This document shows positions 12,882 through 24,260 of a DNA stretch of 64,000 nt, one piece after another. Each line of letters opens with the position of its first letter. Position 1 is the first letter of the stretch. The notes beneath the pieces are model-generated. The model did no database searches and had not been told where the DNA came from. It was given only the letters and a program-made list of their open reading frames with translations. The translations under genes and the position numbers were made by a program. This DNA is from Natrinema sp. SYSU A 869 (GTDB lineage Archaea > Halobacteriota > Halobacteria > Halobacteriales > Natrialbaceae). The stretch is taken from positions 2,604,001 through 2,668,000 of the forward strand of contig NZ_CP082249.1 in the NCBI RefSeq assembly GCF_019879105.1, written 5' to 3'.

Positions 12882-12969
12882 GTGCTTTTGATCGACCGTT
12901 TGCCGAGGGGCATCGCGCTGGCGGCAATGCTACCGACAGCGCGATAGACTGCAGAGCAAACGGTCGGTT
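12882..12969 (-). ncRNA. Two-tier 3' hairpin element after the DUF5611 gene
   Basis: On the minus strand the element begins 3 nt after the TAG at 12970-12972. The outer stem is CGACCGTTTGC/GCAAACGGTCG (12893-12903 with 12956-12966, 11 bp, perfect). The inner stem is ATCGCGCTG/CAGCGCGAT (12912-12920 with 12937-12945). The plus-strand block GTGCTTTTGATCGA (12882-12895) lies at the far edge. The same arrangement with the same outer sequence blocks, but a different inner stem, follows the thermosome gene. Likely a structured 3' UTR or terminator; type ncRNA is a working label. Confidence 0.6.
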
Positions 12970-13353
12970 CTAGAAGTCGTGATCCGGATCGTCTTCGACT
13001 GTGCGCTTCATCGACTCGCGACGGGACTTGGCGTCACGGCCGGTCGCCTCGAGCAGGAAGTCGTTTTTCGCGTCGACGGCGTCGCCGGCGGCCTCGAGTT
13101 CGTCGGGACCGAGTTCGGTGGGGTCGCGCTCGTGGAACTCGACGCCGAGCTTATCCTTCTTGCCGGAGTATTCGATGGTTCCAGCGACGATCTTCTCGAA
13201 GACAGGGTTGTCGGGCTCGCCGATGACGTAGAGGTCACTTCCCTTGTATTCCTGTGTGGTGGTGATGGGGCCGAAGTAGTCCTCGACGGTGGACTCCATA
13301 TCCGGGATTCGTTCCTCGAGATATTCGCCGCGACGCATCTTGTACTCCTTCAT
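12970..13353 (-). CDS. DUF5611 family conserved archaeal protein
   Basis: A 127-residue protein resembling the euryarchaeal DUF5611 family. The N-terminus is MKEYKMRRGEYLEERIP, followed by VEDYFGPI, a beta-rich middle (DLYVIGEPDNPVFEKI, GTIEYSGKKDKLGVEFHERD) and a C-terminal helix rich in charge (SRRESMKRTVEDD). No catalytic motif is visible. The start at 13353 is chosen because the family begins here; the open frame continues upstream to 13392 with MKRGKHSAVFF. Its 3' end carries the structured element shared with the thermosome gene, which suggests strong expression or shared 3' control. Confidence 0.8.
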   Translation of the reverse strand: MKEYKMRRGEYLEERIPDMESTVEDYFGPITTTQEYKGSDLYVIGEPDNPVFEKIVAGTIEYSGKKDKLGVEFHERDPTELGPDELEAAGDAVDAKNDFLLEATGRDAKSRRESMKRTVEDDPDHDF

Positions 13354-13566
13354 GGATCGAAAAAACACGGCGGAGTGTTTACCTCTTTTCATAGCCGACG
13401 TTTCGGGTGTCTGATGCGTCCTTGAACGCGGAGACCGCCGATATCGTCCGCTGTCGGTCGGGAGTCGATCGGAACGGAGTGGGACTATCGGAGAGCGTTC
13501 GAGCCGACCGGGCGAATCCGAAGAATGAACGCAGAGAATCGGTCGATCGCGTCCCGACCGGTGTTC

Positions 13567-14643
13567 CTATTGTTGCTCGCGCTCGCTGAGATACCCCTTC
13601 CGGCAGTCGGGGCAGATGTCGCCGGTTCGAAGCGACCCTCGATCGCCGGCGGCGACGTAGTCACACCGTGGACAGTAGAACTCGGTCGGAACGTCGTCGT
13701 CGGACGTGCTGGCGCTCTCGGCGGGCGTCGGCGCGGACGCGGCGCGCTCGATCCCGGTCTCCGGACCGGGGTCGGACTCGGACTCACCCCGTGCATCGGT
13801 CGGGGGGTCTGCAGTCACCGAGCGGGCGTCGGCCGCGGCCGTAGTCGTGCCGTCGGTACTGTGGTCGCCGCCGGTCTCGACGTCGGACGACCCGTCACTC
13901 TCGAGGAGGACGGCGTCGTCGTCGATCGCGCTCGGATCGGGGCCATCGGCACTGCGGTCGCCGCCGGTCTCGCCGTCGTCTGAGTCGTCCGGCCAGCCGC
14001 TCGGGTCGGATTCGGCGTCGACCGGCGGGCCGACATCGTCCGAATCGGGCCATTCGCCGCGGTCGCGGTCCTGGTCTCGGTCGTTCGAGGGCTCGTCGTC
14101 GAGAATCTCGCCGTCGTCGGTAACGGGCTCACCGTTCTCGTCGGTCGGGAGATCAATATCGTCCGCGTCGCCGGTGGCGTCGACGTCGACACCGGCCGGC
14201 GTCTCAGTGGCCGCCGCCTCCGGTTCCGGACCGGCCGGGCTCGCCGTCGGATTCGCGGACGGCTCCGGCGTCTCCGTCTCGAGCGCGTCCGACGCGGTGT
14301 CGTCGGCATCGATGAGTTCGGCGTCGTCGTCGCCGGCCGTCTCGACGATGTCGTCCGCGTCGACGAATTCGGAATCCGAGGCGGATGCTGTCTCGGTCGC
14401 ATCGGACTCGAGTGGTGGTTCGGGCGGTTCGGCATCGGGCTCGTCGGGGACCGAGTCGGCGGCCGTCCCAGCGGTGAGGCTGGTTACTTCGGTGTTCTCG
14501 CTGATGACGGATCGCTCGCCACAGCGGAGACACTCCTCGTACTCCTGGACGGTAACGACGACTTCGCTCCCCCGTTCTTCGCGCTCGCGTTCGACTTCGG
14601 ACTCGTCGAAGTCGTGTCCGAGCAGCGAACATCGCAGGGCCAT
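13567..14643 (-). CDS. Large acidic protein with terminal zinc ribbons (DUF7093-like)
   Basis: A 358-residue haloarchaeal protein. The N-terminal 55 residues form a small domain (MALRCSLLGHDFDESEVERE, then YEECLRCGERSVIS with a CxxC). A long disordered acidic stretch, rich in D, E, S, T, P and A (residues about 70-310), follows. The C-terminal 45 residues are a second zinc ribbon: FYCPRCDYV ... GDICPDCRKGYLSERE. The arrangement matches proteins labelled DUF7093. The paired zinc sites suggest nucleic acid or protein binding, but there is no direct evidence. The start at 14643 (MALRCSLL) is preferred over 14667. Confidence 0.75.
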   Translation of the reverse strand: MALRCSLLGHDFDESEVEREREERGSEVVVTVQEYEECLRCGERSVISENTEVTSLTAGTAADSVPDEPDAEPPEPPLESDATETASASDSEFVDADDIVETAGDDDAELIDADDTASDALETETPEPSANPTASPAGPEPEAAATETPAGVDVDATGDADDIDLPTDENGEPVTDDGEILDDEPSNDRDQDRDRGEWPDSDDVGPPVDAESDPSGWPDDSDDGETGGDRSADGPDPSAIDDDAVLLESDGSSDVETGGDHSTDGTTTAAADARSVTADPPTDARGESESDPGPETGIERAASAPTPAESASTSDDDVPTEFYCPRCDYVAAGDRGSLRTGDICPDCRKGYLSEREQQ

Positions 14644-14696
14644 TGTCCCACCGTACCGACCCAGCACACAAAAACGTACTGCCTGATAGTCGCGTA

Positions 14697-14828
14697 TTAG
14701 TGACAGTCACGCGAGCGGTTCGATCGGCGACGTCGTAACAGGAATCGCTGACAGCCCGTCCAGTCGATATCGAGGCCGTACTCGAGCGAACAGTGATCGC
14801 ATAGCGTGGACGGAACGGCAAACGTCAA
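14697..14828 (-). CDS. Possible 43-residue zinc-finger micro-protein
   Basis: A TTG-started frame reads MTFAVPSTLCDHCSLEYGLD and ends with a basic tail (FLLRRRRSN) and CH. It has one CxxC and three further Cys/His near the end. Haloarchaea have many zinc-finger proteins of this size, but the start codon is weak, no TATA box is evident, and the frame could equally be chance or part of a broken gene. It is divergent from the winged-helix gene at 14856. Confidence 0.25.
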   Translation of the reverse strand: MTFAVPSTLCDHCSLEYGLDIDWTGCQRFLLRRRRSNRSRDCH

Positions 14829-14855
14829 ATCCCGGGTGGTCGAATGGATAGACAG

Positions 14856-23318: not shown

Positions 23319-23444
23319 TTTTCTCGTCGTGCTATCCTCGTAACTCTGCTACTAAAACCCTACTGTTCCGTGCAAATCTTCTCTCTCCACCGGTAAACTG
23401 CATATTCGTAAATTTCTAAAGGCCCCAGTGCGAGGGTAGATGTG
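23319..23444. promoter_or_regulatory. Divergent glnA/lrp promoter region
   Basis: On the minus strand GGTTTTAGTAG (about 23350-23360) is the likely glnA TATA box. On the plus strand ATTTCTAAAGG (about 23411-23421) is the likely lrp TATA box, 25-30 nt before the repaired lrp ATG at 23445. The AT-rich word ATTCGTAAAT between them is a candidate Lrp site; a related word, TTACGATTTTCGTAA, occurs at the other Lrp-type locus (33270). Confidence 0.5.
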
Positions 23445-23908
23445 ATGACGTACGAAATCTCGATGCAAAATTAGTGAATTCACTTCTCGGCGACGGCCGA
23501 GCGAGCCTGCGGAGCCTTGCCGAGGAACTGGACGTCTCCGTCACGACCGTCTCGAATCACCTCTCCAATCTCGAGGAGCAGGGCGTAATCGACGGCTATA
23601 CGCCAAAAGTCGATTACGATGCGGTCGGCTACGACGTGACCGCCGTGATTCAACTGCAAGTCGAGGGGAACGCCTTACCCGATGTCACCGACACGCTGCG
23701 CGAGCACCGCCAGATGACCAGCGTCTACGAGGTCACCGGCGACTATGACGTGATTGCCATCGGCAAGTTCGAAGATACTGATGGGATGAACGACCAGATC
23801 AAACAGCTGCTGACCGATCCCGATATCAAGGCCTCGAATACCAGCGTCGTTCTTAACGCCGTCAGCGAGAACGAACAGTTCGAGCTCGAGGTCGACGAGA
23901 ACGAATAA
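23445..23908 (+). CDS. lrp: Lrp/AsnC family regulator divergent from glnA (frame break at codon 4)
   Basis: Transcription regulator of 154 residues after repair. The family N-terminus, [18 protein letters not shown], is recovered only if one A is added to the AAA at 23455-23457; as given, the ATG frame stops almost at once and only a GTG at 23474 keeps the main frame open. The HTH is [20 protein letters not shown]; the C-terminal RAM ligand domain contains [17 protein letters not shown]. Lrp genes beside glnA are a conserved haloarchaeal arrangement, which suggests amino-acid-dependent control of nitrogen assimilation. The N-terminal repair rests on family knowledge. Confidence 0.9.
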
Positions 23909-24034
23909 TTGGTCGATCCTTTTCGGATACGATACATTGCGAGCAGTGGCGACGCCAATCAAACCACTGGAGCGAACAAAAAGAGTAGCTAACGAATGAT
24001 GATTATCCTCTCGACCGGATGTCGGCGAGCGAGT

Positions 24035-24181
24035 GGTTCGAAGAACCCGAGCGACGCCGTTCACCGAGCGAAACGCGGTTCTCGCCCTTCGGGCTCCGAA
24101 CCGCGGAACGTGAACGGGCGAAGCCCGTGAGCGTGCAGCGCTCGGGCCGACGACTGATGTGAGGGGGCGCAACGCGCCCCC
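24035..24181. repeat. Array of hairpins beyond the thermosome gene (array B)
   Basis: Perfect inverted repeats in a row: 24035-24047 (GGTTC, loop GAA), 24074-24105 (CGCGGTTC arms around an inner GCCC/GGGC with loop TTC), 24114-24128 (ACGGGC, loop GAA) and 24163-24181 (GGGGGCGC, loop AAC). The stretch 23909-24260 carries no gene. The array mirrors that at 12630-12816: different stem sequences, mostly 3-nt loops, and the same side of the same type of 3' element. Confidence 0.8.
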
Positions 24182-24195
24182 GAACGGAGGGAGGA

Positions 24196-24260
24196 GTGCT
24201 TTTAATCGAATTTTTGCCGAGGGTGCGCCTACGGCGCACCCGCAGAGCAAAACTTCGTTC
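24196..24260 (-). ncRNA. Two-tier 3' hairpin element after the thermosome gene
   Basis: It starts 3 nt after the TAG at 24261-24263. Outer stem: CGAATTTTTGC (24207-24217) with GCAAAACTTCG (24247-24257), one mismatch in 11. Inner stem: GGGTGCGCC/GGCGCACCC with loop TAC (24221-24241). The blocks GTGCTTTTAATCGA (24196-24209), TTTGCCGAGGG and GCAGAGCAAA are shared with the element at 12882-12969. Type ncRNA is a working label; it could be a terminator or a DNA-level repeat. Confidence 0.6.

Follow-up and report, generated by a model that had tools for sequence, protein, structure and literature searches.

Two-tier hairpins past two stop codons and their covariation

The stretch of DNA analysed here (the window) comprises 64,000 nucleotides (nt) of Natrinema sp. 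SYSU A 869, positions 2,604,001 to 2,668,000 of contig NZ_CP082249.1, and carries two copies of a two-tier hairpin element on its minus strand, one after a gene for a DUF5611 protein and one after a thermosome subunit gene. Direct reading confirmed the anatomy that an earlier sequence-only reading had described for both copies, including their position 3 nt past the stop codons. The features are, in window coordinates:

12970-13392, minus strand: gene upstream of copy 1, DUF5611 protein (PF18446), by protein domain match
12882-12969, minus strand: copy 1, two-tier hairpin with AAAAGCAC tail, 3 nt past the DUF5611 stop codon
12956-12966, minus strand: outer stem 5' arm of copy 1, CGACCGTTTGC, by direct reading
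12912-12945, minus strand: inner hairpin of copy 1, ATCGCGCTG ... CAGCGCGAT, by reading and folding
12893-12903, minus strand: outer stem 3' arm of copy 1, GCAAACGGTCG, by direct reading
24261-26027, minus strand: gene upstream of copy 2, thermosome subunit (TIGR02339), by protein domain match
24196-24260, minus strand: copy 2, two-tier hairpin with AAAAGCAC tail, 3 nt past the thermosome stop codon
24247-24257, minus strand: outer stem 5' arm of copy 2 with its T4 tract, CGAAGTTTTGC, by reading and model match
24221-24241, minus strand: inner hairpin of copy 2, GGGTGCGCC GTA GGCGCACCC, by reading and model match
24207-24217, minus strand: outer stem 3' arm of copy 2 with its A tract, GCAAAAATTCG, by reading and model match

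In copy 1 the stop codon TAG (12972-12970) is followed by the spacer AAC, the outer 5' arm, TCTGC, AGTCT, the perfectly paired inner stem, GCCCC and TCG, and the structure ends with the outer 3' arm and the tail ATCAAAAGCAC (12892-12882). Copy 2 runs from the stop codon TAG (24263-24261) through the spacer GAA, the outer 5' arm, TCTGC, the inner stem and TCG to an outer 3' arm with a single G.A mismatch and the tail ATTAAAAGCAC (24206-24196). Each copy folds better than all of its 200 shuffled versions, with z scores of -6.1 and -3.6, respectively. Copy 1 is an atypical member, with T3 in place of T4 and a long inner hairpin whose stem has an A.C mismatch at its base. It is not among the 16 own-genome matches of the covariance model described below, which gave it 13.6 bits (E 0.7) in a search with filters off and 30.5 bits among gene-based loci, where it is L341 (L numbers denote loci and G numbers genomes of this analysis).

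Across the family of copies the consensus, in gene sense, consists of the gene end, 0-5 nt, an outer arm with U4/U5 (CGAMxUUUUGC), an asymmetric loop KCUGC/UCG, a GC-rich inner hairpin of free sequence, the second outer arm, whose A tract matches the U tract, and then ANCAAAAGCACUCCUC. The 19-base split motif TTTGCTCTGC-N(10-40)-CTCGGCAAA was found in 73 of the 125 genomes of the window's family, compared with 3/125 for a reversed control, which matched once in each. Thirteen short-motif matches in the window's own genome (4 for the control), viewed together with the loci, had a single layout and many differing inner hairpins.

The covariance-model search that the sequence-only reading had proposed was carried out with a model, R1, built from 46 copies. 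At an E value of 0.01, R1 had matches in 111 of the 125 genomes of the family (25/29 genera) and in 201 of 391 genomes sampled from the class (58/86 genera); at 0.0001 it matched 27 of 294 genomes of the phylum, all 27 in the same order, a figure that comes without the share of the 294 lying outside that order. The genome counts are lower limits, with only the best candidates per genome scored. Species carrying the element include members of Natrinema, Haloterrigena, Natronococcus, Natronorubrum, Halomarina and Halegenticoccus, as well as Halobacterium bonnevillei. The own genome has 16 places and each of six other genomes between 6 and 22 matches, arrays not counted; the family-wide search, in which only part of the candidates was scored, gave up to 35 per genome.

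Both stems covary, in support of the structure proposed in the sequence-only reading. In the 46-copy alignment, 94.6% of the cells are paired compared with 87.6% in shuffles, 49 cells are doubly changed compared with 13.6, and changes on both sides occur at 10 of the 19 pairs, which was equalled in 0/500 shuffles. The rows of this alignment had been filtered for inner pairing, which favours inner-stem covariation. The starting set of 71 sequences had been kept only where the inner part paired, a filter that lost real haloarchaeal copies (L030, L049, L051, L052, L066, L072, L101, L111, L132 and window copy 1); removal of long inner hairpins and of L120, L124, L141 and L151 left 61, of which 46 were aligned and 15 were dropped for gapped inner stems or an origin outside the family. 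Because of this filtering the count was repeated on 70 matches that had been aligned by sequence alone; they came from 60 loci of other families, which had themselves been found by R1, a structured model. Here 91.7% of the cells are paired compared with 81.9% in shuffles, and 100 are doubly changed compared with 28.7; sliding controls gave 40-47%. Further pair types showed no excess over shuffles in this alignment (135/500).

Sequence conservation was assessed in a set of 84 copies, made up of all 16 own-genome places and 68 of the 77 places of six other genomes (the 9 from G155, G187 and G195 are absent). These copies are not independent, since G141 and G201 share a genus. Among the loci of the analysis as a whole, some are one place taken twice. 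Little variation was seen in the KCTGC/TCG internal loop, in the U tract ahead of it or in the AAAAGC tail, while the sequence of the inner stem is free. A T tract of at least 4 lies within the first 16 nt in 80/84 copies; the tail, which is outside the model, has AAAAGC in its first 14 nt in 52/84 and AAAA in 66/84.

In line with the sequence-only reading, no described family that includes the element was found in Rfam or in the open-licence PubMed Central literature. A search of window positions 10000-27000 against Rfam at E values up to 1 gave no match at the element; the only match, elsewhere (17906-18025, minus strand), was a sub-threshold one to plant MIR5565, with 34 bits where 80 are needed, presumably by chance. 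At the gathering score, SRP (signal recognition particle) RNA, RNase P RNA and tRNA were the only families named in 35 loci. Exact motif matches in bacteria nearly all failed the hairpin filter; the sole one to pass, L151, was left out, and these matches were treated as chance.

Position at gene ends, RNA genes and divergent promoters

Gene ends were called by a simple codon score rather than from annotation, which gave only 254 stops in 868 kb. A stop codon on the sense strand lies within -10 to 25 nt of the start of the element in 60 of the 84 copies, compared with 1/84 for an antisense stop. The distance is tight, with 57 of the 60 within -2 to 7 nt and a peak at 2-3 nt; random positions in 400 kb of the own genome had such a stop in 99/4000 cases. 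Among the best family matches, 27/32 adjoin a stop. These counts support the fixed placement at gene ends put forward on the strength of the two window copies.

The coupling to stop codons as such, also part of the earlier claim, was wrong, because the element is equally flush after genes that are not translated. It follows the SRP RNA of the own genome (RNA at 1179-1490, element at 1501 of L266), an RNase P RNA (1171-1496, element at 1501 of L300) and a tRNA-Ala (1552-1624, minus strand, element at 1549 of L285), the gene end lying 2-10 nt before the element in these cases. In L310 a tRNA lies ~119 nt upstream, and a repeated tRNA 3' end adjoins the element. The sequence-only reading had held that hits placed without regard to stop codons would count against it, and this is so in part: 24/84 matches are away from stops, about ten of which are explained by RNA genes and divergent promoters.

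Convergent gene pairs were found in which both genes are followed by a copy that faces inward, e.g. L275/L306 and L290/L303. For seven of the 24 non-stop copies a divergent start codon is 33-48 nt away, with the copy pointing away from it. This class is only moderately enriched (p about 0.0008 for 7/24): 12/84 copies are 30-50 nt from a divergent start, five of them also with a sense stop, compared with 271/4000 random positions. A gene encoding a protein that begins MSDFDLDL... has the element at 39-40 nt against an apparent promoter (TATA boxes by eye) in five loci: L025, L034 (= L233), L062, L159 and L235. Copies that abut divergent promoters and point away from them could stop upstream antisense RNA. 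Such copies, 33-48 nt upstream of divergent starts, are those of the five loci above and of L259, L279, L286, L293, L301, L308, L309 and L321. In L242, L272 and L281, CCGGGCGTAYAC precedes the copy; no gene or known RNA was found at these three sites, which are possible unannotated RNA genes.

The common rule is the edge of a transcription unit, which is marked by the 5' edge of the element, and the sense strand of the element is that of the RNA leaving the unit. No common function was seen in ~20 proteins of marked genes that were scanned. The suggestion that the element serves strongly expressed genes seems only partly right: many marked genes are housekeeping ones (thermosome, L10e, IF1A, TFS, GyrB, DP2), while others are not obviously of this kind. 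Three genes, for the thermosome, the DUF5611 protein and a FAD-reductase-like protein ending EPKY, are marked both here and in G201. By hand count, 14 gene families are marked here and 16 in G201; 3 are shared, one of them with a decayed copy, where 0.07 would be expected given 3000 eligible genes, which argues for old placement at some genes.

Orthologous sites and the composite modular repeat

Orthologous sites were also approached from the genes, with 30 loci each for DUF5611, SRP RNA and RNase P RNA from 44 genomes (302 kb). At E values up to 0.5, 11 of the 16 model places in these loci adjoined the 3' end of the query gene, three of which were previously known (L341, L369 and L383); at up to 0.01 the figure was 6 of 9. 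Within one genus most orthologues are bare, some have an intact element with unrelated inner stems and some have clear wrecks, a patchiness that indicates frequent loss and regain. Where the gene following DUF5611 is conserved as well, the two lie 416, 322 and 358 nt apart if the element is present, 268, 286 and 303 nt apart if it has decayed, and only 148 nt apart in G122, from which it is absent and where no clean insertion junction is defined. In L435 (G151; 1927-1975) a plain hairpin with TTTTTGC/GCAAAAA arms, without the internal loop, lies directly 3' of the RNase P RNA and is possibly a simpler relative of the element.

The limits of the element at 12882 and 24196 in the sequence-only reading proved too narrow, as homology to other copies of the genome continues to ~12615 and ~24020. 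The two-tier hairpin forms the first module of a larger composite repeat, 240-355 nt long. The same outer arms enclose 1 to ~9 hairpins, which in arrays after some genes of the own genome are joined by constant linkers. In the window this repeat spans 12969-12615, to ~60 nt before the next start codon, and includes pieces of 24260-24020. The additional modules are:

12615-12881, minus strand: more modules of the composite repeat after copy 1 (hairpins GCGGACGC.., GAAACGGC.., ACAAATC..)
24020-24195, minus strand: more repeat modules downstream of copy 2, with pieces 24138-24195 and 24020-24070 matching other genome copies

Positions 12615-12859 are 86% identical to a second copy after another gene of the same genome. 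Near-identical multi-hairpin arrays also follow unrelated genes of the own genome (L004, L006 and L178, at C3 ~1549589, 2135904 and 1429031), and the genes that bear arrays here (DP2, an AsnC-type regulator and the FAD reductase-like gene) have the short form in other genomes. A separate observation on L106 (3-4730, Natrinema versiforme) is that its gene for the DNA polymerase D large subunit has an intein with a LAGLIDADG domain.

Triplet loops in the arrays alternate between GAA and TTC, as if the palindrome centres flip. In L072 (1168-1205) the entire core has the orientation opposite to that of the tail and gene, which suggests flipping through the inverted-repeat arms. One subgroup has CACTACACGTGC or a near form ~12 nt upstream (L045, L069, L104, L117, L120, L124, L133, L141, L158 and L408); its members are alike over 70-250 nt, with farther flanks mostly unalignable. 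L069, L120, L124 and L141 share 85-96% identity over 145-247 nt, the rest of their 700-nt flanks being mostly unalignable. This subgroup is a dispersed repeat with a 5' boundary; its interpretation as RNA genes was rejected, the members scanned having no Rfam match and forming such a repeat. On Natrialbaceae plasmids (L402, L405 and L408), similar hairpin modules were observed inside other palindromic arms, CCTCGGGGTC ... GACCCCGAGG, apparently as hairpins nested in hairpins. Since the composite repeat is patchy and decays at orthologous sites, a partly mobile history like that of the BOX elements and bacterial interspersed mosaic elements (BIMEs) is likely.

A proposed role in transcription termination and alternative explanations

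Anatomy, covariation, placement, orientation and the conservation of T4 are established for this element. On balance we lean towards reading it as an orientation-specific element of Halobacteria that marks the 3' edge of a transcription unit and would act as a terminator, probably a bidirectional one, or as a 3'-end-forming signal; its placement and T4 tract support such a role, which was one of the options of the sequence-only reading. Tracts of T4 or more on the sense strand were found after 49 of 254 stops of the own genome, compared with 4.2% of 5975 random windows, and tracts of A4 or more after 15/254. Termination is favoured because T4 or more is the sense-strand signal after stops and the element carries T4/T5 in 80/84 copies.

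From this we infer the termination itself, and with it the parts played by aCPSF1 and the hairpin and the action in both directions. The U4 tract would serve as the termination signal of archaea, which aCPSF1/FttA binds and cuts, and the GC-rich palindrome behind it may delay the polymerase or shield the remaining 3' end. As the outer arms form an inverted repeat, a polymerase arriving from either side would meet T4 before the GC-rich palindrome; the tail, where it has AAAA, could supply one more T4 tract to a polymerase on the antisense strand, and copies facing away from divergent promoters would halt upstream antisense RNA. A broader proposal, which we hold only tentatively, is a termination device used throughout the class: an inverted repeat with T4 ahead of a GC-rich palindrome on each strand and a conserved loop read by a dedicated factor, which would insulate units on both sides, including from upstream antisense RNA of divergent promoters, and would spread as a modular BOX-like repeat.

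Bacterial bidirectional intrinsic terminators, which also lie at gene ends, are inverted repeats with T and A tracts; the element is their mirror image, its T tract lying 5' and its A tract 3' of the hairpin. It also differs from the bacterial intrinsic terminator, in which a U tract follows a GC hairpin, as its tail is ANCAAAAGCACTCCTC. T-stretch terminators have been described in Haloferax (PMC7237163), and in Methanococcus aCPSF1 requires U4 tracts (PMC8716108). The element shares with these archaeal terminators a sense-strand T4 or longer tract just past the gene end, a putative transcript end present as U4 or more in 80/84 copies (T3 in window copy 1). It differs from them in that its tract belongs to an inverted repeat, forming one of the two arms that flank a GC-rich hairpin, in that the internal loop and the tail are conserved, and in that the hairpin follows the tract.

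Several observations weigh against termination. Window copy 1 has only T3; in the folded RNA the U tract pairs with the A tract, and it precedes the hairpin; and a scan of positions 12000-25000 for bacterial-type terminators did not pick the element. In Haloferax the authors report no general structure signal at transcript ends, a hairpin being found at a subset only (PMC7237163). The fold of the SRP-side copy L266 is no better than its shuffles (z -1.3), and correction of palindromes at replication could maintain paired stems without selection on RNA. Some copies lie away from both gene ends and promoters (e.g. L242, L265, L272 and three plasmid copies). Among the orthologous loci, the element is intact in 4/30 and, by reading, decayed in 3 after DUF5611, and intact in ~4/30 and decayed in ~4 after SRP RNA; after RNase P RNA 0/30 loci have an intact copy, with a lone weak match in L434 (E 0.22). 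This patchiness implies that the element is dispensable at any single gene.

As the main rival we see a modular palindromic repeat, either mobile or copy-converted and similar to BOX, BIMEs, miniature inverted-repeat transposable elements (MITEs) or the palindrome-associated transposable elements (PATEs), whose position at gene ends would be a consequence of spreading, through insertion or survival, and whose effect on termination would be incidental. A repeat of this kind is compatible with a terminator, and as an explanation in its own right we consider it unlikely. It would account for the near-identical arrays after unrelated genes, the patchy presence and decay inside one genus, the longer DUF5611 spacers with the element than without, the boundary shared by L069, L120, L124 and L141, and the hairpin modules in other palindromic contexts on plasmids. 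Yet an orientation bias of 60:1 and the tight stop spacing are hard to obtain by insertion, the element adjoins RNA genes, and the same genes are marked in different families (3 shared, 0.07 expected). There were 0 exact short-motif matches in viral contigs and one array was unmatched in 50,697 phage records, for which reason a virus-borne element was rejected too.

Enterobacterial repetitive extragenic palindromes (REPs) and BIMEs have possible roles in termination and stability and are, like the element, palindromes of extragenic 3' regions in mosaics with other motifs; the arrays with conserved linkers are such mosaics. The GTAG or CGTC tags of REPs are absent, the edges of the element being CGA../..TCG by reading. 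The element apparently has fewer copies (16 own-genome places and 6-22 in six others, arrays uncounted, compared with >100 per genome) and a longer two-tier structure, and it also follows RNA genes. To pneumococcal BOX, modular as boxA-boxBn-boxC (PMC3049150), it is likened by description: both have fixed outer modules around a variable number of inner hairpins (1 to ~9 here) and are intergenic and patchy, but gene-end orientation appears far stricter in the element. PATEs of Haloquadratum, mobile repeats that have palindromes near their termini akin to those of IS605-type transposons (PMC3119063), are likewise haloarchaeal palindromic repeats, while the element is found at gene ends, in a single orientation.

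RNase R is a 3'-to-5' decay enzyme in haloarchaea, and a hairpin that blocks 3'-to-5' decay of mRNAs and stable RNAs would be a stability device of the 3' untranslated region. The very stable hairpin of the window copies, an inner sequence that is free yet keeps its pairing, and the position after housekeeping genes are in line with this. We nevertheless find it improbable: a conserved T tract, an unpaired tail and fixed internal-loop letters would be superfluous for a generic plug, promoter-proximal copies point away, and the mature ends of SRP RNA, RNase P RNA and tRNA (Rfam and ARAGORN models) are upstream of the element, which would therefore lie outside these mature RNAs. Still less credible, and largely refuted by the copies at RNA genes, is a stop-coupled regulator of translation, modelled on E. 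coli, where REPs within 15 nt of the stop codon stall ribosomes (PMC12306157). At coding genes the element follows within a few nt, which would fit it, but like spacing is found after untranslated RNA genes, and copies occur upstream of divergent promoters. Two further candidates were rejected. For a kink-turn in the internal loop, the sense KCUGC/UCG lacks tandem G.A pairs (inspection only); on the antisense strand the TCT variant comes close and the GCT variant, common in other families, does not. For an uptake sequence the copies are too few.

In most descriptions an archaeal terminator is a bare U tract. If termination is indeed its function, a hairpin-bearing, orientation-specific gene-end element common to coding and RNA genes across Halobacteria would be a sequence handle on termination in this class and a route to unannotated RNA genes. 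It would also offer ready-made insulators for haloarchaeal genetics, and would represent an archaeal counterpart of the BOX/BIME mosaics with a likely function.

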